Shown: positions 8,138 to 32,204, counted from the stretch's first letter. The stretch: DNA of 64,000 bases from Campylobacterales bacterium (GCA_024278835.1 JAJRSK010000053.1:1-64000), one strand, 5' to 3'. Notes: generated from the letters alone by a model not told the origin. A program made the numbers and translations.

Positions 8138-8151
8138 TTGATATGAATCAA
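8138..8151. promoter_or_regulatory. FNR-type box upstream of napA
   Basis: The sequence TTGATATGAATCAA is a perfect TTGAT-N4-ATCAA dyad centred about 66 bases upstream of the napA ATG, in the gap between napA and the Crp/Fnr gene. Its distance to the -10 element fits activation from a position close to -41.5. A second perfect copy lies upstream of nosZ. Confidence 0.85.
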
Positions 8152-8165
8152 GTAATATAAATTTT

Positions 8166-8810
8166 TTAGGAAAATAGTGCGTTTAGGACGTCATTGTCAT
8201 GAATGGTAATTTGATGTTTTTTGTCAATAGAAATGATTTTTTCACGTTGTAGCTTCGTAAGCATACGTGAAAGTGTTTCAGGTGAAACGTTGAGTATAGA
8301 GGCAATTTGGTTATTTTTAAGTGTCAAAAATAGTTCATGATGTTCAGAGATAAAAGAAGCTACTTTTGCTTCTGAACTTAAAATCATCTCTTTATGGATG
8401 ACATTAGAAAGTATCCTGATCTTTTTAGTCAAAGAAGAGATAAGACTCACACAAATCTCTGGGTTTTGGAGAAACTCACTCTTGAACTTTTTATAGTTTA
8501 TCTTCATCACCTGACCTTTAGTGACAAAGCGCGCTGTAGCTGGAAAGTTCATCTCTTCAAAACAGGCAGCTTCTGCTACCATAGTAACAGGAATAAACTG
8601 GTGCAAATAAACTTCATTGCTCTTGTTATCTGTTTTATAAAGTCGTAGTAGCCCTTCCGTTAATATATAGAGATACTCTGGTTCATCACCTTCATAAAAA
8701 AGAATTTCATCAGCATAAAAAGATTTTAACACGGATATCTTTTCTAACTCTTTTAGCTGCTGATCACTTAGCTGAGAAAAAAGTTGTACTTCCCTTATAC
8801 TTTGCATCAT
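8166..8810 (-). CDS. Crp/Fnr family transcription regulator, likely nap/nos activator
   Basis: The 214-residue protein has a cyclic-nucleotide-binding-type beta barrel (about residues 10-120), a dimerisation helix, and a C-terminal helix-turn-helix (about 165-190). The recognition helix carries E178, S181 and R182, the E-xx-SR arrangement that lets FNR read TTGAT. The N-terminal cysteine cluster of oxygen-sensing FNR is absent; the only cysteines are C83 and C120. It is therefore closer to NO- or nitrosative-stress-sensing relatives (NssR/DNR type). It lies directly upstream of napA in the same direction and a perfect TTGAT box separates the two. Confidence 0.85.
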   Translation of the reverse strand: MMQSIREVQLFSQLSDQQLKELEKISVLKSFYADEILFYEGDEPEYLYILTEGLLRLYKTDNKSNEVYLHQFIPVTMVAEAACFEEMNFPATARFVTKGQVMKINYKKFKSEFLQNPEICVSLISSLTKKIRILSNVIHKEMILSSEAKVASFISEHHELFLTLKNNQIASILNVSPETLSRMLTKLQREKIISIDKKHQITIHDNDVLNALFS

Positions 8811-14214: not shown

Positions 14215-14676
14215 CTACATGTCTAAGTAACGAATAAGCCCTTTAGAGAGCCTCTCAAATGGTAAGATTTTTGTCCCACCACTTTTCAACATAAATAACT
14301 TTGCACTATCCATAGATTCAAAGGGAATAAGGTCATCACCATGTGGTCCGATAGTACGACTGCCAAACAGATAGACTGCTTTTTTCGCATCTACCCTTCT
14401 GCCGTTGAGATAATCCTGCACATAAATTTTAGCAATTTTATCATCCATAAAATGATTCTTGATAAAATAGTCTTGGTTTCGATAAACTTGCATCATTGAT
14501 TTTACAGAGATAAACTGGACTTTTTTACCATTTTCTAGCACTGCTTCACAAAGCCATTTTGGATATTGTTTAAGCGGTAACACATATATCATATCCGTGC
14601 TATTTTGATCATTTGGTTTTATCGCCTCTGCAGATAAAGTTGCTATCATGATGGATATCATCAGTAAATATTTCAT
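14215..14676 (-). CDS. nosL: NosL-family protein lacking the copper-binding CxxCGM motif
   Basis: The 153-residue exported protein keeps the NosL core: YPKWLCEAV, the RVDAKKAVYLFGS strand and GPHGDDLIPF near 112-121. It has no CxxC-Met site; the only cysteine is C43. Compared with the paralog at 25904 it lacks the segment just before YPKW. It has a Sec signal (residues 1-16). NosL delivers copper to NosZ, so this copy has either changed role or binds copper through other residues such as the many methionines. Confidence 0.75.
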   Translation of the reverse strand: MKYLLMISIMIATLSAEAIKPNDQNSTDMIYVLPLKQYPKWLCEAVLENGKKVQFISVKSMMQVYRNQDYFIKNHFMDDKIAKIYVQDYLNGRRVDAKKAVYLFGSRTIGPHGDDLIPFESMDSAKLFMLKSGGTKILPFERLSKGLIRYLDM

Positions 14677-21567: not shown

Positions 21568-24171
21568 TTAGAACAAGTTCGCGTTCTGATCAATCCATTT
21601 AAGATATTTGATGATGTCATCTGTTTGATCTTCGGACATACCTTGGTTAGGCATTCTAAGATTAAAGTAATTAGTCATCGATTTGATATAGTCATTGTCA
21701 TACATTTTTTCAGGATGCATAATCCATTGTTTGACCCACTTCTCACCATTTTCATGACGACCAAGTACACCAACCAAATCTGGTCCAGAACTTACCTTAC
21801 CGATAACGTGACAACCATTACAACCACCTTCTAGGTATGCTGAATGTCCGCGTTGCTGCGCTTCGCTCATAGGTGATGCAACTTTCTTCACAAGTAAGTC
21901 TTTGGCTCTGATTCCAACATCTGCTGTTTTAACCATATACTGCCAAATCATATTTTCAAAAAGAATTGCTTTATCCATGTCTCCAGCTTTCACTGCTTCA
22001 TCAGATTTCTTCTTCTCTTCTGCGATTTTACCATACTGATCTAAAGCATCTGTCACAAGATTTTTTACCGTGTTATGTTTTTCATAGTGGTTGTCTTTCA
22101 AGAACTTAACAACACTTTGAATAACGGCGTCAGTTGCTGTATTTGTCGCTACTGTTTTGTCATACTCCGCTTTGAGTTGTTCAGGTGTCATTTTTGCTAT
22201 TTTAAGTTTTGCTGCTGCTGTATACTTTTTGTTAGGATCTTTTACAAGTAAATAACCCATCATCTCCAAGTGAAGTGCAGAACAGAACTCTGTACAATAG
22301 TAAGGGAATACACCTTCCATATCAGCCGTAAAAGTAACCGCCACTGTTTTACCAGGCTCTAGCGATGTGTGAACATTGTATTGATCGACTGTAAATCCAT
22401 GTGTCTCATCTTCTGCACGCTCTAAGTTAGTCAAATAGAAAGTAACAGTGTCACCTTTATTAACAGTTAAGTGCTCAGGATTGATGTGAGATCTTACAAC
22501 GGTTCCATACACATAGACATGGTTACCTTTTCGAACCACTTTTTCTTGTCCAGCAAGTGTTTTACCAACATGCGTTTTACCCGTAAAGGCATTAGTACCC
22601 ATTTTATATCTTACATGAGGATGCAATTTAGACGCTCTAATTGCCACTGCTTGATGTGGTTCACCAAGAGGAATTGGCATATCATACAAGAGTTGCATCT
22701 TTTTACCCCGGATATCAATCAACTGGTGATTTTGTGGATGCAATGGTCCAATCTCATTAAATCTATCAATCGCTAGTTTATTAAGTGCGATGATATACTC
22801 ACCTTGAGGATCTTCTGTTTTACCTTCCATTCCACATAAGTGACCGATATTGTAGTTAACATTTTGTCTATCTAGTACCTTACAAGTAAGATAATCCCAC
22901 TTCACTACTTGACTATCAACATAGAGTGACGTATAAATCTCACCATTATCTTTCCAACCTGGTCCAAACTGGTTGTGCAGTGGCCCAAGACCCAACTCTG
23001 CTTGACAATGCATCGCTTTTTTCATATCTAAGATAGGTATGCCATAGGGATCTTTACCAGCATATTCTTTGTTTTTAATCAACTTTTGAATTTTTGCCCA
23101 TGAATAAACTGTCGCATGTGTATCTAGTTTACCACACACTACGATATATTTACCATCTGGAGATACATCTACACCATGTGGAGACTTTGGTTCAGGAACA
23201 AGGAAAAGTGCATTGTTTTTAATCGCAACATCCATAGGAACTACTCTATGGTTATTGATAATTTTAACATTTTTATCATCTTTTGCAAGTTCTGCCAATT
23301 TTTTCCAGTTATACACATGTAAAAAATCCGTATCATTACGGCTACATCCTGCTTCAAAAGGAGGAAGCCCTTTTTCGATACCACCTGTATACATTTCAGA
23401 GTTGAAGCTGTTTGTAAATCCCCACCCATCACAAACTTCTTTACCTGCATCTGAAAGATCTTGCATGTAAGGAGGCATTTCAATTGTAAATGATTTTTTA
23501 GGTTCTATTTTACCTATCTTTGGATCAAATTTCCAAACAGTCACACCACCACGGTATGTCTCTTTATACTCTTCCATCGGGTGATAGTTATTATCTAGAG
23601 GTGCACCATACTGACACGCTTCTAAGATACGCTCAGAGTCTGGTGTAAAAAACGCCCCACCATGATCTGATTTAAATACAGGATTGACCACAATTTGTTT
23701 GGTAACAAAGTCTGCTAAATCAATAACTGCTATACGGGGATTGGCTTTATCGTTGACAACCAACCATTTACCATCATACTTACCATCAGTTTCTGAGAGT
23801 GCTGGGTGGTGTGTATCACCCCAAGTTATCTCTTTACCTCTGATATTTCCCTGCGCAAGCACTTTTTTGGTGTCATCATCATATCCCCAACCCTGCCATG
23901 GCTCTGGTGTAAATACACCAATGTATTTTAAGAGTCTCATAGAAGGAACTCCATATACCAACATTTGTCCAGATTGACCACCTGAACTAAACACGATATA
24001 TTTATCCCGTCCACCACTTGGTGTGTATGTTTTAGCTGCTGCAAGTAAATCAGACTGTGAAAGACCTCTATCTTTCATAACCTTATCTAGTTCTGTTGCA
24101 GCATTACCAAAAGTCATACTAACCATCGTGCCAATTGCGATAATTGACAATTTCTTTACGATTGACTTCAT
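21568..24171 (-). CDS. nosZ: NosZ, clade II cytochrome-c nitrous oxide reductase
   Basis: This 867-residue enzyme reduces N2O to N2. It has a Sec signal (residues 1-24, ending GNAA) rather than a Tat signal, which marks clade II. The beta-propeller with CuZ histidines (DTHHPALSETDGKYDGKW, DHGGAFFTPD, PHGVDVSPDG) is followed by a cupredoxin domain with the CuA ligands C-x3-C near 627-631 and HLEMMGY. A C-terminal haem domain carries CNGCH near 784. It heads the nos operon and has an FNR-type promoter. Confidence 0.98.
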   Translation of the reverse strand: MKSIVKKLSIIAIGTMVSMTFGNAATELDKVMKDRGLSQSDLLAAAKTYTPSGGRDKYIVFSSGGQSGQMLVYGVPSMRLLKYIGVFTPEPWQGWGYDDDTKKVLAQGNIRGKEITWGDTHHPALSETDGKYDGKWLVVNDKANPRIAVIDLADFVTKQIVVNPVFKSDHGGAFFTPDSERILEACQYGAPLDNNYHPMEEYKETYRGGVTVWKFDPKIGKIEPKKSFTIEMPPYMQDLSDAGKEVCDGWGFTNSFNSEMYTGGIEKGLPPFEAGCSRNDTDFLHVYNWKKLAELAKDDKNVKIINNHRVVPMDVAIKNNALFLVPEPKSPHGVDVSPDGKYIVVCGKLDTHATVYSWAKIQKLIKNKEYAGKDPYGIPILDMKKAMHCQAELGLGPLHNQFGPGWKDNGEIYTSLYVDSQVVKWDYLTCKVLDRQNVNYNIGHLCGMEGKTEDPQGEYIIALNKLAIDRFNEIGPLHPQNHQLIDIRGKKMQLLYDMPIPLGEPHQAVAIRASKLHPHVRYKMGTNAFTGKTHVGKTLAGQEKVVRKGNHVYVYGTVVRSHINPEHLTVNKGDTVTFYLTNLERAEDETHGFTVDQYNVHTSLEPGKTVAVTFTADMEGVFPYYCTEFCSALHLEMMGYLLVKDPNKKYTAAAKLKIAKMTPEQLKAEYDKTVATNTATDAVIQSVVKFLKDNHYEKHNTVKNLVTDALDQYGKIAEEKKKSDEAVKAGDMDKAILFENMIWQYMVKTADVGIRAKDLLVKKVASPMSEAQQRGHSAYLEGGCNGCHVIGKVSSGPDLVGVLGRHENGEKWVKQWIMHPEKMYDNDYIKSMTNYFNLRMPNQGMSEDQTDDIIKYLKWIDQNANLF

Positions 24172-24236: not shown

Positions 24237-24250
24237 TTGATACACATCAA
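24237..24250. promoter_or_regulatory. FNR-type box between nosZ and the two-component operon
   Basis: TTGATACACATCAA is a perfect TTGAT-N4-ATCAA dyad, 72 bases upstream of the nosZ ATG and 81 bases upstream of the divergent response-regulator ATG. For nosZ the geometry is ideal for class II activation. It may also influence the divergent genes. Confidence 0.85.
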
Positions 24251-24324: not shown

Positions 24325-24993
24325 ATGATAAGCCAATCCATCCATATCCTCATCCTAGAAGATGACACCCTTTTTGCGGAGAGTTTAGAAGACTTTTTAG
24401 AAGAAGAGGGATTTTTTATCACCCTTGCACATGATGGTGAAAAAGCGTTGGAACTAGCCTACGAAAAGTATTTTGATTTGTTGTTACTGGATGTCAATGT
24501 ACCTAAACTCACGGGTTTTGAGTTTCTATCTCATTTGCGAGAAAGACAACAAAATACACCTGCTATCTTCATCACCTCATTTAAAGATAAGCAAAGTATC
24601 AAAAAAGGCTTTCTACAAGGGGCGGATGACTATCTCACAAAACCTGTAGATTTAGATGAATTGTTATTGCGTATTGTAGCTTTGCTGCGACGCTGCCACA
24701 AACTAGAGGAGTCTATCATGATAGGCACTGCCATCTTCTATCCCAAAAAGGGAATCATTCACTCCCAAGGAGAGAAATATCAACCATCCAAAAAAGTTAT
24801 TTTACTCTTAGAACTCCTTATAGCACATCAAAATACTATCGTTTCCACTGAACGTATCTATGCGCATCTATGGGCTTGGGATGAGACACCTAGCCCCTCC
24901 TCTTTGCGTGTTTATATCAATGATCTCAAGAAGATATTAGGCAAAGAGCATATCATCAATCATAAAGGCATAGGATATAAACTTGCACTCTAA
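24325..24993 (+). CDS. OmpR-family response regulator divergent from nosZ
   Basis: The 222-residue protein has a receiver domain (about 1-120) with the acidic pair in LILEDD, the phosphoacceptor Asp in LLLLDVNVPK (near 53) and the conserved Lys in YLTKPVD. The C-terminal winged helix covers about 130-220 (SLRVYINDLKKILG, HKGIGYKLAL). It pairs with the histidine kinase that overlaps it. Targets are unknown; nosZ and its own accessory operon are the obvious candidates. Confidence 0.9.
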   Translation: MISQSIHILILEDDTLFAESLEDFLEEEGFFITLAHDGEKALELAYEKYFDLLLLDVNVPKLTGFEFLSHLRERQQNTPAIFITSFKDKQSIKKGFLQGADDYLTKPVDLDELLLRIVALLRRCHKLEESIMIGTAIFYPKKGIIHSQGEKYQPSKKVILLLELLIAHQNTIVSTERIYAHLWAWDETPSPSSLRVYINDLKKILGKEHIINHKGIGYKLAL

Positions 24994-25825
24994 ACACGAA
25001 AGTTTTTACTTCAACAACGCCCTTATCATGATAGCTGTTATCAGTCTTGTTTTACTCTTGGAGTACTTTTTAACACCTTTTATACCACTCACTTCATTGC
25101 GTACTATCATCATTATTTTACTAGCATTAGCCGTACATTTTTTTCTCTCTACCTCCCTGCTTGAACACTACAAAGAACAAGAAAAAAATCTCAAAAATCT
25201 CGTTGATGAAACACTACACGAACTCAATACACCTATCAGTACTATCGAAGCCAATCTCAAAATGTTACAAAACGCACACAGCGATGAAAAAACCCTCAAA
25301 CGTCTAGCAAGGATAAGCCAAGCGTCTAAAAACCTCAGCCACCTTTATGAAAGTATCGAGCACTCCATTAAAAATGAGATAGATACACTTGAAAAAGAGA
25401 CCTTTGAACTGCATAGCCTAGTCAGGGATAGTATAGGAAAAGTGGTCGATATCCAAGGGGATATCATGATAGAAAATAGTATACCCACTATCATGATAAG
25501 TGCTAACAAGAATGGCTTTGAACGCAGCATCGATAACCTCCTCTCCAACGCCATCAAGTACAACAAAAAAAAGGGATTTGTAAAATTTTATTTGCAAGAT
25601 AAAAAACTTTTTATTCAAGACTCTGGACATGGGATAGATAGCAAAAATCTTTTTATCATCTTTGACAAGTCCTACCAAGAAAACCCCACAACTTTAGGCT
25701 TTGGTATAGGTTTAAGTATCGTAAAATCGTATTGTGACAAAGAGAAAATTGATATCAAAATAGATACAAAGAAGTCCATTGGTACCACTATCATGATGGA
25801 CTTAAAAAATCTTATTAACGATTAA
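24983..25825 (+). CDS. Sensor histidine kinase with two membrane helices and no periplasmic sensor domain
   Basis: The 280-residue kinase starts with TTG (24983), overlapping the regulator stop. Two adjacent hydrophobic helices (about 12-30 and 38-57) have only a short loop between them. The H-box is HELNTPIS (His near 79), followed by N-box SIDNLLSNAIKYN, QDSGHG and GFGIGLSIV. With no sensor domain it may sense within the membrane or through a partner such as the adjacent NosL or the CPFC membrane protein. Confidence 0.88.
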   Translation: MHSKHESFYFNNALIMIAVISLVLLLEYFLTPFIPLTSLRTIIIILLALAVHFFLSTSLLEHYKEQEKNLKNLVDETLHELNTPISTIEANLKMLQNAHSDEKTLKRLARISQASKNLSHLYESIEHSIKNEIDTLEKETFELHSLVRDSIGKVVDIQGDIMIENSIPTIMISANKNGFERSIDNLLSNAIKYNKKKGFVKFYLQDKKLFIQDSGHGIDSKNLFIIFDKSYQENPTTLGFGIGLSIVKSYCDKEKIDIKIDTKKSIGTTIMMDLKNLIND

Positions 25826-25863
25826 TTAACACTTCCTTGTTATACTTCTCTTGTCTATGAGAA

Positions 25864-25871
25864 ATTTCCTA
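25864..25871 (+). promoter_or_regulatory. Half-site ATTTCCTA upstream of the second nosL
   Basis: This 8-mer repeats one arm of the nosZ inverted repeat, within the shared 11-mer AAATTTCCTAC also present at 24192. It is 33 bases before the nosL ATG and close to a TTGTTATACTT promoter-like sequence at about 25839. A common regulator is possible; chance is not excluded. Confidence 0.3.
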
Positions 25872-25903
25872 CAAAAATTTTCAAAGTACAAGGTTGTATA
25901 TAT

Positions 25904-26539
25904 ATGATATATAAAATGTTTATAACGCTAATACTGCTATCAACCTCCTCATATGGTAGCCTATACGATAAGGGCGAAAAGATCTACTCTATTATGTGTG
26001 ATAAAGAGAAGATTTCTACCCTTAGTTATAGCGATGCTGATACGCTTAAACAGCAAATAAAAAGCCAAAAACTATGCGGTAATTTAAATGATAAAAAGCT
26101 AAATGCTCTTAGCCATTTTCTCACTTCTAAAGAAAAAAGTACCAAAACAAAACATCTCGTAGTGCCTGAAGAATCTCGTTGTCCTGTTTGTGGTATGTTT
26201 ATCTCCAAATATCCAAAGTGGGTTGCTATCATCGAAACTAAAGGGGGAGAGAAATATTATTTTGATGGTGTCAAAGATATGATGAAATTTTATTTTGATC
26301 CTCTCAAGTTTCATCATGATAGGGAAGCAATTTCTCACATCATGGTGAGTGATTATTATACGATTGAAGGGATAAATGCTAAAGAGGCTTACTATGTCAT
26401 CGGCTCCAACATCTATGGACCTATGGGAGAAGAGTTGATACCCTTCAAAACGCAAGCCGATGCGCAAAACTTCTCGGATGAGCATCACGGAAAAAAGATA
26501 CTTTCTTTTGATATGATACAAGAAAAATTTCTCTACTAA
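25904..26539 (+). CDS. nosL: NosL-family copper chaperone with N-terminal extension
   Basis: The 211-residue exported protein has the full NosL metal site CPVCGM (C93, C96, M98), then YPKW, KYYFDGVKDMMKFY and a GPMGEELIPF motif. Residues 20-75 precede the NosL domain and recall a c-type cytochrome fold (KGEKIYSIMC) without a CxxCH motif. Signal peptide is at 1-18. It follows the two-component pair and is likely a copper donor for NosZ or another copper enzyme. Confidence 0.85.
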   Translation: MIYKMFITLILLSTSSYGSLYDKGEKIYSIMCDKEKISTLSYSDADTLKQQIKSQKLCGNLNDKKLNALSHFLTSKEKSTKTKHLVVPEESRCPVCGMFISKYPKWVAIIETKGGEKYYFDGVKDMMKFYFDPLKFHHDREAISHIMVSDYYTIEGINAKEAYYVIGSNIYGPMGEELIPFKTQADAQNFSDEHHGKKILSFDMIQEKFLY

Positions 26540-26590
26540 GGCCAGATCATCAGTACACTTACTAAAAGTTTTATCACTGCATTTACACTT

Positions 26591-26758
26591 ATGATAGCAC
26601 TCTTTAGCTTGCTAATCTTTTCGCCAAAACGCTATCATGATAGTGGTATATCTCCACTAATCTCACGCGCAGGATTAGTACAAAGCAAGTCCGCTTATGA
26701 AGAGGATTTCTACCCTGCCCTTAAAGCGATCAATTACCAAGGATTTGTCCATGAATAA
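26591..26758 (+). CDS. 55-residue membrane-anchored or exported small protein
   Basis: From ATG 26591 the product has a hydrophobic segment (IALFSLLIF) followed by a polar tail with PKRYHDSGISP and AYEEDFYPALKAINY. The TAA lies 3 bases past the ATG of the permease gene, so it is translationally coupled. The same frame is open back to the nosL TAA, and 14 further plausible residues (ISTLTKSFITAFTL) precede the ATG; an ATC codon at 26546 or 26549 behind AAGG could be a non-standard start. Function unknown; likely a small component of the adjacent ABC system. Confidence 0.65.
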   Translation: MIALFSLLIFSPKRYHDSGISPLISRAGLVQSKSAYEEDFYPALKAINYQGFVHE

Positions 26759-27929
26759 ATCTGCATTTTTAAATTTTTTGTTTCTCTCACTTTACAAGCA
26801 TAGAGCCAAACATATCGCGATATTTATCATTTCAACGCTGTTAATTTTCCTTCTTTCATCGATGACTTTTATCTCCTCAGCCCTACAACAAGAGTCACTA
26901 AACACTCTCAAAGGAGAGAGCGACTTTCTACTTCAAAAGATGCGTTCAGGTCAGGCAGTGGACACACCGATAGCATGGGTAGATGAGATAGAAAAGATAC
27001 GCGGTGTCTCCGTTGTTACCCCACGCATATATGGCAAATACCTCTTGCCCTATGATGAAAAGTACTTCACCATCATAGGCGTGGACTTTTTTGACGAACA
27101 AATCGTAGCAAACCTTAAAAAACTCTTCTTGGACCTTGATATAAAAAGCTTTTTACAAAAGGATCAGATGATAGTCGGCGAAGGGGTAAGAGCCTACATG
27201 AAACAAAATCACTATGATACATACTTCAACTTTTTAACACCACAAGGCGAAGAAAAAAGCGTTTCTATTTACGATAACTTTTCTCACGAAGGCAACTTAG
27301 TCAGCAATGATCTCATCATCATGAGTGCCGACTTAGCCAGAGAAATTTTGGGTGTCGATGAAGAGGAAGTCAGTGACATCTCCATCTCCGTGCCCAACGA
27401 AGCTGAGAGGGATAATATCGCCTTTAAATTAAAATCTTTACATTTTGACGCACGCATCATCGCCAAAACAGATATGCAAAGTGCCTATGAAAAATTTTAT
27501 AACTATAAATCAGGGATATTTTTACTACTTTTTATCCTCTCACTTAGTACTTTTATGCTTATCCTCTACCAAAGATATGCGATGGTAGGTAGCAGCGATA
27601 AAAAAGAGATTGCTATCCTAAGGATGCTTGGTTGGAGTATCAAAGATGTACTCAAACTCAAACTCTATGAGACACTTTTTATCAGTATATTTTCCTTTAT
27701 GTTAGGCATCGTTTTGGCTTATGTTTTTGTCTTTGTTTTTAACGCACCCCTACTTCGTGATATCTTTTTAGGCTTTGGTAACTTAACGAACAACCCTTCG
27801 TTTCAACCTGTCATAGATGGAGGATTGATAGCTTCACTCTTTCTCTTTTTTATCTTACCTTTTGTCTTTGCCGTTATCATCCCCGTGTGGCGTATCGCTA
27901 TCATCGACCCTTACGAAGGTATGAAATGA
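26751..27929 (+). CDS. ABC transporter permease, FtsX/MacB type
   Basis: From ATG 26751 the protein is 392 residues: one N-terminal helix, a periplasmic MacB-type domain (about 45-240, with VTPRIYGKYLLP), and three C-terminal helices with the FtsX motif EIAILRMLGWSIKDV (about 285-299). Such permeases act as mechanotransmitters or lipoprotein releasers rather than channels. The start is chosen at the coupled ATG; an 18-codon longer frame lies within the small upstream gene. The ATPase follows. Confidence 0.87.
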   Translation: MNKSAFLNFLFLSLYKHRAKHIAIFIISTLLIFLLSSMTFISSALQQESLNTLKGESDFLLQKMRSGQAVDTPIAWVDEIEKIRGVSVVTPRIYGKYLLPYDEKYFTIIGVDFFDEQIVANLKKLFLDLDIKSFLQKDQMIVGEGVRAYMKQNHYDTYFNFLTPQGEEKSVSIYDNFSHEGNLVSNDLIIMSADLAREILGVDEEEVSDISISVPNEAERDNIAFKLKSLHFDARIIAKTDMQSAYEKFYNYKSGIFLLLFILSLSTFMLILYQRYAMVGSSDKKEIAILRMLGWSIKDVLKLKLYETLFISIFSFMLGIVLAYVFVFVFNAPLLRDIFLGFGNLTNNPSFQPVIDGGLIASLFLFFILPFVFAVIIPVWRIAIIDPYEGMK

Positions 27930-27943
27930 CAAGGAGTAAAGCA

Positions 27944-28612
27944 ATGATACAGATAACAAACCTCAACAAAACATTTCACCCAGACACGGCACGCGCTTTC
28001 ACAGCACTAGATAGTATCAACTTACAAATCAAAGAAAATGAACTCATCATCCTAAAAGGCGTCAGTGGTAGTGGCAAATCCACCCTACTTTCCATCATTG
28101 CTGGTTTACAAAAACCAACCCATGGAGAACTTTTAGTAGAAGGGGAATCCATCTCTAAACTTCCCGACTTGCACGCTTCACATTTTCGTGCCTCAAGCAT
28201 CGGGTTCATCCCCCAAGCCTTCAATCTTTTTGAGACCTTAAGCGTAGAAGAAAATCTCTCCGTGGCACTCATCCCTCTAGGATTTTCGCCAAAAGAGATA
28301 GCCAAAAAAACCCAAAAAGCCCTAGAATTAGCGCTGATATCTCATAAAAGAAAAGAACTCATCACTAATCTTTCAGGGGGCGAAAAGCAACGAACTGCCA
28401 TCGCCAGAGCCCTCGTCAATGACGCGAAAATCATCCTTTGTGATGAACCCACCGCAAACCTTGATACCCAAAATAGTAAAAAATTTATCATCATCATAGA
28501 AGAGCTTAAACGATTAGGGAAAACCATCATTATTGCCACACATGACCCATTATTTGACACCCTATCCTTTAGCGACCGTATCATCAAAATGGAAGATGGA
28601 AAAATCTTGTGA
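27944..28612 (+). CDS. ABC transporter ATPase, LolD/MacB type
   Basis: The 222-residue ATPase shows Walker A GVSGSGKST (about 37-45), Q-loop, LSGGEKQRTAIARAL (about 142-156), Walker B ILCDEPTANLD and the IIATHD switch. The start at 27944 is preceded by AAGGAG at 7 bases. It works with the upstream FtsX-type permease. Its last bases overlap the GTG of the next gene. Confidence 0.92.
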   Translation: MIQITNLNKTFHPDTARAFTALDSINLQIKENELIILKGVSGSGKSTLLSIIAGLQKPTHGELLVEGESISKLPDLHASHFRASSIGFIPQAFNLFETLSVEENLSVALIPLGFSPKEIAKKTQKALELALISHKRKELITNLSGGEKQRTAIARALVNDAKIILCDEPTANLDTQNSKKFIIIIEELKRLGKTIIIATHDPLFDTLSFSDRIIKMEDGKIL

Positions 28613-29577
28613 CTGCCCAAATCCTCTTGCAAAATGAAGTCCTTATCTCTCTCTTTTCAGAGACACTCATCCTCATCCTCAACATCATCGCTATCATAGG
28701 TACCATAAAAATTCTCAAAAACTGGGACTTCAGTTCCACTTCACCCCAACAATATAAACTAGAAAAACGTAGCTACCTTATCGTCCTCATCATCACAGTA
28801 TCGCTACTTTTCAACATCTTACTCTTACCTTATTTTGCCTTTTGCCTTGAGAGTCTCTCTGCTATCGTACCTGGTGCGATGTGTGGTGCAGGAGTCATCT
28901 CTGCCAACCCCTATGGAAACCCTCTACTACTTCTAAAAATCCTCATACTCTTTTTCATCGGCATCTGGCTCCTCATCAACCACGAAGATTTAAAAGCCAA
29001 AAACTACCCCTATACACGCAAAAAGTTTTGGTTTTTCTCCATCATCTTTATCATGATAGCCACTTCTTATATATTAGAAATCGCCTATTTTAGCAATATA
29101 TCCCTAGAAAAACCCGTCTCATGCTGCTCCGTCATCTTTGGACTTAGTGGTGCCAACAGCTTGCCATTTGGCTTAAGCACACTCATGATAGTGGCTATCT
29201 TCTATCTACTAGCCTTACTAAGTTTTCTCTTTATATGGCAAAAACAAGCCTTTGCTTTGGCGTTCTCTAGTATAGGATTTTTATTTGTCGCGTACTACGC
29301 GATAACACACTTCTTTGGTACTTATATCTACCAACTCCCCACTCATATATGCCCTTTTTGTATGTTGCAAGGAGAGTACTACTATGTAGGATACTTGATA
29401 TGGGGTTTACTCTTTGTAAGCGTATTTTTTGGAATAGCCAACGCAGTCCTAAGACTTATCATCGGCAAAGAGTTAGTACGATTTTATCATTATGCCTTTA
29501 TTACTTTGGTTTCCTTTATCATCATAACAGCTGGATATGTGGTAGTTTATGTTTTGAAAAATGGGGTTTGGTTATAA
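28609..29577 (+). CDS. Polytopic membrane protein with CPFC motif, unknown function
   Basis: The 322-residue protein begins with GTG overlapping the ATPase stop (GTGA). About eight membrane helices are visible. Notable cysteines are C79 and C92 (region MCGAG), C172-C173 and C248-C251 (HICPFC), the last resembling thiol-redox or metal-relay motifs of DsbB/VKOR-type proteins, although I cannot assign the family. It closes the operon of two-component pair, NosL, small protein and ABC transporter, so a role in thiol or copper handling for N2O reductase is proposed. Confidence 0.7.
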   Translation: MTAQILLQNEVLISLFSETLILILNIIAIIGTIKILKNWDFSSTSPQQYKLEKRSYLIVLIITVSLLFNILLLPYFAFCLESLSAIVPGAMCGAGVISANPYGNPLLLLKILILFFIGIWLLINHEDLKAKNYPYTRKKFWFFSIIFIMIATSYILEIAYFSNISLEKPVSCCSVIFGLSGANSLPFGLSTLMIVAIFYLLALLSFLFIWQKQAFALAFSSIGFLFVAYYAITHFFGTYIYQLPTHICPFCMLQGEYYYVGYLIWGLLFVSVFFGIANAVLRLIIGKELVRFYHYAFITLVSFIIITAGYVVVYVLKNGVWL

Positions 29578-29885
29578 AAAATACTATCCATAAATAGTGA
29601 CTTTTTTAACACTTATCTAGCACATTGTTATCACGATGGTAATATTTTAAGAAAAAGTTTATTTTAAACTTTAAATGATTTTAACTTTACAAATAGTTTC
29701 GGGTCTAACCTTATTAGACTTACATTTTGTGATTAGATAAATTATAGGATATCTGATTCTTTTATAACCACTCCCTCACAACTTTTTAAAAGTTGGATAA
29801 AAACTTTAAAGAAAAACAAAAGTGTCAGATTTTTTGTTATAATGAGTAAAGGGCACCTCTAAAGATAAAGGCATTGGAGATAATC
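29578..29885. other. Non-coding gap of about 300 bases
   Basis: No gene is visible. It holds a short dyad CAACTTTTTAAAAGTTG near 29780, some AT-rich repeats of AAACTTTAAA type, and near its end a TTTTTGTTATAAT promoter (-10 at 29838-29843) for the next small gene. The dyad could act as a weak terminator for the upstream operon. Confidence 0.5.
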
Positions 29886-30122
29886 ATGCAAACATTAACA
29901 ATACAATTCAAAGATGACTTTATGAGTGAGGTTATTAAGTTTATTGAAACAGCAAAAGATAATATTGTGATAAAGAAAGACAAAAATTTAGAACTTGACC
30001 CATATTTTTATGAGAGACAAAAAGATTTACAAAAAATACTAAATGATGATAACCAAATGAGAACTCACGATGAGTTGTGGGCTAAAGTACATAAACATCT
30101 TGAAAAAACTCACTCCCAATAA
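29886..30122 (+). CDS. Orphan antitoxin-like small protein
   Basis: The 78-residue product starts with a short strand and helix (LTIQFKDDFMSEVIKFI) and continues LDPYFYERQKDLQKI, a pattern I associate with RelB/DinJ-type antitoxins of Campylobacterota. ATG 29886 is preceded by TTGGAG. No toxin gene follows: the next 94 bases are non-coding and then comes a methyltransferase. It is probably a solitary antitoxin remnant or regulator. Confidence 0.55.
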   Translation: MQTLTIQFKDDFMSEVIKFIETAKDNIVIKKDKNLELDPYFYERQKDLQKILNDDNQMRTHDELWAKVHKHLEKTHSQ

Positions 30123-30216
30123 TGCAAATTACTTTTTAATCCTAAAAAAATATTATAATAGTTTATGTTTTGAGAAATAGAATCTGCTTATAATGAAAGC
30201 TAAAAAAGGAAGATAA

Positions 30217-30954
30217 ATGATGAAAAAATACTTGATATTTTCATACGCAATAATTGGCTATTTATTTGCACTTAGCACTTTAACTTTTTTGATTTTCTGG
30301 GTCTATCCTTGGGACTTTATGCCCTTATATATCGACAATCCTATGAGTAATGTAGGCATGAATCCTCTTATCATCGACATCAGTTTATTGCTCTTTTTTG
30401 CTTTGCAGCACTCTCTTATGGCTAGAAGTTTTTTTAAAGATGGGTTATTTAAAGACATTTCATATGCCGTAAAATCTGCCACTTACTCTCTTGCTTCGTC
30501 ACTCTGTCTCCTGCTTATCTACTACTTTTGGCAGCCACTTTATGGATATGTTTGGGTATTTGAAAACAGCTTTATGTCTTGGGTGCTTAGTGCTGTATAT
30601 CTCACTGGATGGTTCATTGCCTTTCTTGCTACTTTTATCATTGACCATTTTGAACTTTTTGGCTTGCATCAAGGATATAGAGTTTTGAAAAACATTCCTG
30701 AACCAGAAATTACGTTTCAAGTACGTTATTTTTATAAATATATCAGACATCCTATCCAGGCAGGTACACTGGTGGGTCTATGGGCGACACCTTCTATGAG
30801 TTATACTCATCTATTGTTAAGTATTGGTATGACTATTTATGTATTGATAGGTCTATATTTTGAAGAAAAAAGTCTGCTAGTTACTTTTGGTGATGCATAC
30901 AAAAACTATATGAAAACCACACCTATGTTAATTCCACTTATCAAAAGAAATTAA
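30217..30954 (+). CDS. Membrane S-methyltransferase of the MddA/NnrU type
   Basis: The 245-residue protein has about six helices, the FFALQHSLMAR motif (about 61-71), a YRVLKNIPEP loop and the YKYIRHPIQAG motif of isoprenylcysteine-methyltransferase-like enzymes (about 173-183), ending FGDAYKNYMK. This combination is typical of methanethiol S-methyltransferase MddA and of NnrU. MddA would make dimethylsulfide from methanethiol; NnrU is linked to denitrification. A good AAGGAAG site precedes two adjacent ATGs. Confidence 0.65.
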   Translation: MMKKYLIFSYAIIGYLFALSTLTFLIFWVYPWDFMPLYIDNPMSNVGMNPLIIDISLLLFFALQHSLMARSFFKDGLFKDISYAVKSATYSLASSLCLLLIYYFWQPLYGYVWVFENSFMSWVLSAVYLTGWFIAFLATFIIDHFELFGLHQGYRVLKNIPEPEITFQVRYFYKYIRHPIQAGTLVGLWATPSMSYTHLLLSIGMTIYVLIGLYFEEKSLLVTFGDAYKNYMKTTPMLIPLIKRN

Positions 30955-30980
30955 CAAATCTTCTATCATGATAACTATGC

Positions 30981-30986
30981 TATAAT
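30981..30986 (+). promoter_or_regulatory. -10 element at leaderless spacing before the third nosL
   Basis: ATGCTATAAT ends six bases before ATG 30993, with CCTCTT between. A TATCATGATA copy (30964-30973) overlaps the expected upstream promoter region. Confidence 0.55.
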
Positions 30987-30992
30987 CCTCTT

Positions 30993-31496
30993 ATGAAAAA
31001 ATTAGCACCTATATTCACCACTGTACTTATCATGGCTATCATCATGATAATCTTCTTTTCACTAGCAAAACAAGAGCAAATGATAACGGTCTATAAAGAC
31101 AACCATACCCAGGAACCACTTAAGCTAAATCTCCACCACCTACAGGATCCCCAATGTGCCATGGTCGTAGAAAAAAATGAATATGCCGCGCAACTGGCCG
31201 CAAAGAGCGGTAAAACTTGGGTATTTGATGATATCGGATGTTTGGTACTATGGCAAGATGATAAAGTATTTATGGATGAACCAAGATTGTGGGTTTATAC
31301 GATGGACTCTAAAAAGTGGATAGACGCCAAAAAAGCACACTACTCTGCTACAGAACGTACTCCTATGATTCATGGCTTTGGTGCGTATGAATATCCTGAT
31401 GCAAAACTCATCGACTACGAGGAGATGCGCTTACGCGTGCTTCGTGGCGAAGATATGACCAACCCAATTATCCGTAAAAAACTCTTAGGGATATAG
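30993..31496 (+). CDS. nosL: NosL-family protein with single-cysteine metal site
   Basis: The 167-residue protein is anchored by an N-terminal helix (8-24). The NosL pattern is DPQCAMVV (C55, M57), WVFDDIGCLVLWQDD and KWIDAKKAHY. Only one cysteine stands where NosL has CxxC. It is most similar in layout to the operon nosL at 15514. The next gene starts directly after the stop, so it is paired with a SafE/DsbD-type membrane protein. A copper-transfer role is likely; its target is unknown. Confidence 0.78.
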   Translation: MKKLAPIFTTVLIMAIIMIIFFSLAKQEQMITVYKDNHTQEPLKLNLHHLQDPQCAMVVEKNEYAAQLAAKSGKTWVFDDIGCLVLWQDDKVFMDEPRLWVYTMDSKKWIDAKKAHYSATERTPMIHGFGAYEYPDAKLIDYEEMRLRVLRGEDMTNPIIRKKLLGI

Positions 31497-32204
31497 ATGG
31501 ACTCTATCAATCTACTCTCTATCATGACCATTGCCTTTTTAGGCTCATTTGGACACTGCGTAGGGATGTGTGGCGGTATTGTAGTCGCATATACCAGTAC
31601 CAAAGTAGATGAAAAATGGTCAAAAACCACCCAAGCTTTTGCGCATTTCACCTACTCTTTGGGGCGTGTGAGCACATATGTACTCTTAGGTGCGCTCTTT
31701 GGTTATCTCGGTGGTGTGGCAACGTTTAACAACTATACCAATGGTGGCTTACTCGTCTTTGCCGGGGTCATCATGATACTAGCGGGGCTCTCTTTGATGG
31801 GTAAGGTCAAGTTTCTCACACTCATCGAACACTCTTTTTCAAAGTCCGAATGGTATCAAAAAAGTTTTCGCTCCCTATTGCACTCTAAAACACTCTTTTC
31901 TTTTTATCTATTGGGAATGTTAAACGGGCTTTTACCTTGTGGTTTTGTCTACTTTTTTGCCATCACTGCGGCAAGTACTGGTAGTGCACTTTGGGGTGCG
32001 ATAGTGATGTTAGTATTTGGTTTGAGTACTATTCCTGCGATGTTTTCTATGGGATTTTTTGTGGGTCTATTTAAACAAAGTTCTTTTCGCTCACTTATGA
32101 TAAAGTTCGCTTCCATCGCGGTCATAGGCTACGGATTGTTTACTATCTATAATGGATATGGATTTATTACAGATCCAACAAGGACGTTGTTACACTGTCA
32201 CTGA
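31497..32204 (+). CDS. SafE/DsbD-type membrane protein (HCVGMCGG family)
   Basis: The 235-residue protein has six helices and the motif HCVGMCGG (H20-G27) with a partner cysteine in LLPCGFVY (near 143), the arrangement of the cytochrome-biogenesis/DsbD-like transmembrane family often annotated as sulfite exporter TauE/SafE. Members are found near copper-oxidase assembly genes. Adjacent placement to a NosL protein suggests copper or thiol transfer across the membrane. Its end overlaps the convergent trmH gene by 7 bases. Confidence 0.8.
   Translation: MDSINLLSIMTIAFLGSFGHCVGMCGGIVVAYTSTKVDEKWSKTTQAFAHFTYSLGRVSTYVLLGALFGYLGGVATFNNYTNGGLLVFAGVIMILAGLSLMGKVKFLTLIEHSFSKSEWYQKSFRSLLHSKTLFSFYLLGMLNGLLPCGFVYFFAITAASTGSALWGAIVMLVFGLSTIPAMFSMGFFVGLFKQSSFRSLMIKFASIAVIGYGLFTIYNGYGFITDPTRTLLHCH

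Follow-up and report, generated by a model that had tools for sequence, protein, structure and literature searches.

In this Campylobacterales genome, the operon that faces away from nosZ, the gene for the reductase that removes the greenhouse gas N2O, probably forms a cassette that handles copper for respiratory enzymes of the periplasm and is sited here by nosZ. The best reading of the evidence is that it forms a Cu(I)-delivery module common to several respiratory copper enzymes, with NosZ as its likely client in the stretch of DNA analysed. This stretch (the window) comprises 64,000 nt from Campylobacterales bacterium (GCA_024278835.1 JAJRSK010000053.1:1-64000). The genome is Sulfurospirillum-like; among named relatives, a Sulfurospirillum sp. 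MAG encodes the protein closest to the CPFC protein of the operon (80% identity). The features concerned are the following.

21568..24171, minus strand: nosZ, Sec-type (clade II), with a C-terminal cytochrome c domain (TIGR04246, 864.6 bits, cut-off 625)
24237..24250, no strand: perfect FNR-type box TTGATACACATCAA, an exact TTGATN4ATCAA in the nosZ/response-regulator intergenic region
24325..24993, plus strand: OmpR-type response regulator (Pfam Response_reg and Trans_reg_C)
24983..25825, plus strand: sensor-less histidine kinase with two helices (Pfam HisKA and HATPase_c)
25904..26539, plus strand: NosLx, with a NosL copper-chaperone domain (PF05573, 105.2 bits, cut-off 24; AlphaFold; Foldseek)
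26591..26758, plus strand: small one-helix membrane protein of 55 aa, 5' of FtsX (comparable ORFs in relatives)
26754..27929, plus strand: FtsX-type (type VII) ABC permease (PF02687, 43.7 bits, cut-off 25.5; start by homology)
27944..28612, plus strand: ABC ATPase of the LolD/FtsE/MacB type (Pfam ABC_tran)
28609..29577, plus strand: CPFC protein, an eight-helix membrane protein (conserved residues, AlphaFold model)
30993..31496, plus strand: NosL3, a membrane-anchored divergent NosL (35% identity to the nos-operon NosL; position in relatives)
31497..32204, plus strand: DsbD_2/UreH-like membrane protein with a GHCxGMCGG motif (PF13386, 172 bits; position in relatives)

The seven adjacent genes placed at 24325-29577 by the initial annotation are all present there on the plus strand, and other genomes have homologues arranged in the same way, which indicates that these ORFs are not due to chance. 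They had been described as overlapping or abutting, which holds for the other joins, all overlapping, but not for three, where gaps of 78 nt (kinase-NosL), about 51 nt (NosL-55-aa ORF) and 14 nt (FtsX-ATPase) were found. The starts of the FtsX permease (26754, MNKSAFLNF...) and the ATPase (27944) were set by homologues rather than by the earliest start codons. The operon diverges from nosZ, as proposed, across a shared intergenic region of 154 bp. The span 24325-29577 is, however, too short, because NosL3 and the DsbD_2 protein of the cassette are present in the window at 30993-32204, and the unit thus runs past 29577. In many relatives, NosL3 directly follows CPFC and is itself followed by the DsbD_2 protein, whereas two extra ORFs intervene between CPFC and NosL3 in the window, one of them encoding an NnrU-like membrane protein (PF07298) at 30217-30954. 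The genome also encodes a complete nosDFYL system, and a NosL-domain protein found 3' of nosY (14215-14676, minus strand; PF05573, 60.8 bits) brings the number of NosL-type proteins in the window to four.

Homologues of the window genes were mapped at 140 loci in relatives, 129 of which are non-redundant. The order of the cassette is NosL, small one-helix protein, FtsX, ATPase, CPFC, NosL3 and, in some cases, the DsbD_2/UreH-like protein. The FtsX-ATPase-CPFC core is nearly constant across the mapped loci, usually with NosL and the small protein on its 5' side, and with NosL3, often accompanied by the DsbD_2 protein, on its 3' side. By a simple rule, a comparable small ORF precedes FtsX at 71 of 119 loci; the small protein has a C-terminal DFVY-like motif, and no Pfam family matched the 55-aa ORF of the window. 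Arcobacteraceae have a minimal FtsX-ATPase-CPFC core without NosL, standing alone with no copper gene nearby. In a phylogenetic tree, one clade comprises the mcc cassettes and another the Arcobacteraceae cores, and linkage to nos is scattered, which suggests that this linkage has been gained or lost repeatedly. Of the 11 "mcc" labels in the tree, that of L049 is based only on a Sel1-repeat neighbour and is probably wrong. Four cassettes (L133, L156, L159 and L150, the last with nos genes) were found on MAG contigs labelled Krumholzibacteriota or assigned to another non-Campylobacterota bin, reflecting either horizontal transfer or a binning error.

The initial annotation viewed the operon as a possible copper or maturation system for NosZ and called for a survey of co-occurrence with clade II nosZ. 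Across 299 genomes of the order Campylobacterales, including drafts that hide linkage and may hide nosZ, CPFC was found in 147, nosZ in 119 and both in 91 (odds ratio 7.2, p 1e-14, kinship ignored). CPFC is, thus, not confined mostly to nosZ-less genomes, as 62% of the genomes encoding it have nosZ. Thirty-one cassettes lie no more than 20 kb from nosZ, in at least seven families (about 2–3 expected by chance), most of them on the strand of nosZ and either internal to the nos cluster or closing it; the head-to-head arrangement is limited to the cassette of the window (1 of 31). Conversely, 56 of the 147 CPFC genomes have no nosZ, and most of these are at least 90% complete. No CPFC match was obtained for 28 of the 119 nosZ genomes, indicating that CPFC is not essential for NosZ. 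In a published description of the Sulfurospirillum cavolei nos cluster, the genes between nosL and nosY are called a "five-gene insertion" and include those for an ABC permease and an ATPase (PMC4794192). This insertion fits the cassette, which occupies this very place in three relatives (L064-L066), although in the available text of that source it is described as an insertion, with no function proposed and no link made to mcc or to copper uptake.

A second respiratory context was found in the mcc operon. A close MccA, the haem-copper sulfite reductase, is encoded by 28 of the 299 genomes, all of which have CPFC, and 26 cassettes lie 8.4–11.8 kb 3' of mccA on the same strand, where they end the mcc operon. 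In the operons read, the order is MccA, FKBP, FeS, NrfD, CcsBA, Sel1, a double-domain NosL, a small protein, FtsX, ATPase, CPFC and NosL3. MccA counts among the copper enzymes (PMC7558416, citing Hermann 2015). The MccA used for the survey, from a relative, matches PDB 4RKM over its full length (E 0, residues 1-690) and contains seven CxxCH motifs and one CX15CH motif. In one mcc operon (L161, G040:C1:850000-866000), apparently broken by genes resembling transposases, neither mccA nor the front of mccC is left, and the downstream cassette is kept. No description of the genes downstream of mcc, or of NosL-FtsX pairs, was found in the literature searched. The sulfite reductase (mcc) cluster of Wolinella succinogenes and relatives is among the closest known systems, but the window genome differs in having no mccA match. 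This absence, together with the single CPFC copy in the genome, the adjacency of nosZ in the window and the enrichment with nosZ across the order, would suit a second maturation operon specific to NosZ, assembling CuZ or CuA of this enzyme only. We consider such a restriction improbable, given the cassettes present in complete nosZ-less genomes and the 26 located in mcc operons.

Copper uptake and efflux genes provide two further contexts. TonB receptors for which the best family is the copper receptor family TIGR01778 (OprC/NosA), albeit with scores below its cut-off, occur at five cassette loci, and four of the five carry CPNRM and HPM, which constitute both halves of the CxxxM-HxM copper site of OprC (PMC8610252). 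The likeness to OprC/NosA receptors is confined to these relatives, as no OprC/NosA-like receptor was matched at E 1e-60 in the genome of the window itself. Several cassettes are adjoined by TonB/ExbB/ExbD genes, and one (L028) by homologues of CusA and CusB. The copper theme of the cassette is, therefore, well supported, by four copper contexts (nos, mcc, copper uptake and CusAB), and the attachment of the cassette to the mcc operon and to copper-uptake receptors points to a general copper-loading module rather than one for N2O reductase only. The copper role originally proposed has, thus, held up, but its NosZ-specificity has not, a NosZ-only function being rejected on the evidence of the 299-genome survey and the mcc linkage. 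There are 45 CPFC genomes with neither nosZ nor a close mccA, including the Arcobacteraceae with the NosL-less core, and the FtsX-ATPase-CPFC core may, therefore, have a broader role, perhaps for cbb3 oxidase.

The chaperones of the cassette are of two kinds. NosLx is a true NosL: its NosL domain contains CPVCGM, M174 and H194, its AlphaFold model (pLDDT 90) matches NosL 7OG7 in Foldseek (E 3e-8) and the NosL of NosDFYL, and CxxCxM, Met and His, the candidate Cu(I) ligands, are conserved. It has an N-terminal helical domain (25904-26160) with two invariant cysteines (C32 and C58), the sequence pattern of which is reminiscent of a cytochrome c lacking the haem motif; no cytochrome family in Pfam matched this domain, and the Foldseek match to a cytochrome was weak (rank 32, E 4.0). 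NosL3 is more divergent. It can be aligned with the nos-operon NosL (pairwise identity 35%, E 2e-21), and PF05573 weakly matches 16 of 25 family members but not the window copy; a profile search of the PDB with NosL3 retrieved no NosL.

Like NosDFYL (PDB 7OSF-7OSJ, 7ZNQ), the cassette combines a NosL chaperone, an ABC ATPase and a permease near nosZ, but it has an FtsX-type permease instead of NosY, has no NosD beta-helix, and adds a cysteine-rich eight-helix protein and two NosL proteins. The view that its gene mix is unlike NosDFY was borne out, as no gene for a NosD beta-helix or NosY was found within 24325-32204, both being present in the opposite nos operon. In having one FtsX-domain permease and a separate LolD/FtsE-like ATPase, it resembles the type VII systems MacB, LolCDE and FtsEX, from which it differs in the absence of MacA or a lipoprotein-releasing partner, its partners being copper chaperones and CPFC. 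The ATPase is closest to LolD/FtsE-type models, and the permease (391 aa, one FtsX domain, few conserved Cys, His or Met residues) gives a profile that weakly matches LolC, MacB and YtrF in the PDB. The operon does not encode a MacAB system, the ATPase and permease genes being separate and no adaptor gene being present. A general envelope ABC system of the LolCDE or MacB kind, brought near NosL by operon growth and acting on a substrate other than copper, would account for these resemblances and for the NosL-less core of Arcobacteraceae. This seems hardly likely, considering the recurrence of copper-specific neighbourhoods in four contexts, the conserved Cys, His and Met residues of CPFC, and the score of the permease against the LolC/E equivalog TIGR02212 (41.2 bits, cut-off 362.45).

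No Pfam or NCBIfam model matches the CPFC protein of the window. Eight residues are invariant in 61 homologues (M91, C92, C172, C173, H246, C248, P249 and C251), forming Met-Cys (M91-C92), Cys-Cys (C172-C173) and His-x-Cys-Pro-x-Cys (H246-x-C248-P-x-C251) motifs. The AlphaFold model, which is confident (pLDDT 91.8, pTM 0.88), predicts eight long helices, and all these residues fall within the three loops that follow helices 2, 4 and 6. Lysine and arginine are more abundant in the loops on the opposite side (mean 1.0–2.8) than in those on the cysteine side (0.2–1.1), suggesting that the cysteine loops face the periplasm. A Foldseek search of the PDB with this model gave nothing below E 0.001; as modelled, CPFC is a previously undescribed, conserved eight-helix membrane family for which no fold relative was found in the PDB. 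Membership of the VKOR/DsbB family was considered, as hinted at by a DsbB-like CPxCxLQ motif at a helix start and by the VKOR profile PF07884, which does not match the window protein and matches 3 of 44 relatives weakly (best E 0.002), but was rejected, no PDB fold match supporting it. The same features, together with the haem lyase encoded by the mcc operon itself, could be taken to indicate a thiol-redox system, in which CPFC, as a DsbB/VKOR-like quinone-linked oxidoreductase, would set the redox poise of NosL, or of haem- or copper-site cysteines, with the ABC transporter providing power or regulation. We regard this explanation as unlikely, since, despite the confidence of the model, no fold match to VKOR or DsbB was found in the PDB, and the invariant Met and His residues suggest metal ligands. 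The CPFC residues could, nevertheless, be redox-active and bind no metal.

The exact pattern TTGATN4ATCAA occurs twice in the window (0.27 expected), and the 14-mer TTGATACACATCAA once in the genome. The other site (8138-8151) lies upstream of napA, between napA and a gene for a CRP/FNR-type regulator (8166-8810, minus strand). In W. succinogenes, Nss regulators control the nitrate, nitrite and N2O reductases (PMC6682613), and, with perfect boxes at napA and nosZ, joint control is plausible. The kinase is sensor-less, as initially described: it has two helices joined by a short loop, a region without conserved Cys, His or Met in eight aligned homologues. It has an orthologue in 169 of the 299 genomes, nearly always in single copy. 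Among 150 listed copies, 28 have a TonB copper receptor, nosZ, or CPFC or the cassette no more than 20 kb away. CPFC is close to 17 of the copies and nosZ to 14, with about three each expected by chance for genomes of an assumed size of about 2 Mb. Response-regulator homologues adjoin the cassette at ten loci (L028, L048-L051, L061, L078, L090, L113 and L122). This repeated proximity ties the two-component system to the copper theme, yet it is no constant part of the cassette. A sensor-less kinase next to an FtsX-type transporter, and the CusAB genes adjoining the cassette at L028, also recall a Bce-like stress module, in which the two would respond to copper, or to a toxicant acting on the envelope, by inducing defence or efflux. 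This alternative appears very improbable: the kinase resembles the BceAB-RS type but is missing from most cassettes, that of L028 is of another type, the permease, with 391 aa and one FtsX domain, contrasts with the large ten-helix BceB, and copper-uptake receptors lie beside other cassettes.

The operon also contains copies of the palindrome TATCATGATA (24714-24723, 25024-25033 and 29049-29058, for example), of which there are 36 sites in the window, versus 0.15 expected. The genome of the window has 1549 and another genome of the same genus 1009; counts are 3–88 elsewhere in the family and mostly 0–20 per genome in the order (166 in G056), with a count of 7 for the reversed-pattern control. 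It is a genus-specific highly iterated palindrome.

The mechanism that we favour for a Cu(I)-delivery module is as follows. NosL itself carries Cu(I) (PMC6530538, PMC7558416), and the NosL proteins of the cassette would carry it within the periplasm. The ABC transporter, made up of the FtsX permease and the ATPase, would work mechanically, as a motor comparable to NosFY of NosDFYL, rather than as a metal channel. ATP hydrolysis plays a mechanical role in NosDFYL, and the small number of conserved metal ligands in the FtsX permease argues for such a role here. The five invariant cysteines of CPFC, with its His and Met, would face the periplasm and hold Cu(I) or keep the chaperone thiols properly redox-poised. 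ATP hydrolysis would then drive the hand-over of copper to the client: NosZ in the window, MccA elsewhere, and perhaps cbb3 oxidase where both are absent. Expression would be tuned by the two-component system, for which membrane partners possibly do the sensing, and may be coupled to that of nos by the FNR-type box. We infer both the mechanical hand-over and the Cu/thiol site in CPFC from these features. The most specific form of the proposal, a second machine for Cu(I) insertion that is shared among clients, derives its mechanical drive from an FtsX-type ABC system and is built around a new-fold membrane protein holding periplasmic copper, serving both N2O reductase and the haem-copper sulfite reductase, is a tentative one, which we consider possible rather than probable.

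The supply of periplasmic copper to respiratory enzymes is partly known, and NosDFYL is the best worked-out example of ATP-driven hand-over. A second cassette associated with two unrelated copper enzymes would, if confirmed, show ATP-driven hand-over to be more general. It would also offer candidate genes for loading MccA with copper, and possibly the accessory genes so far missing when clade II N2O reductases from Campylobacterota are to be produced in other organisms.
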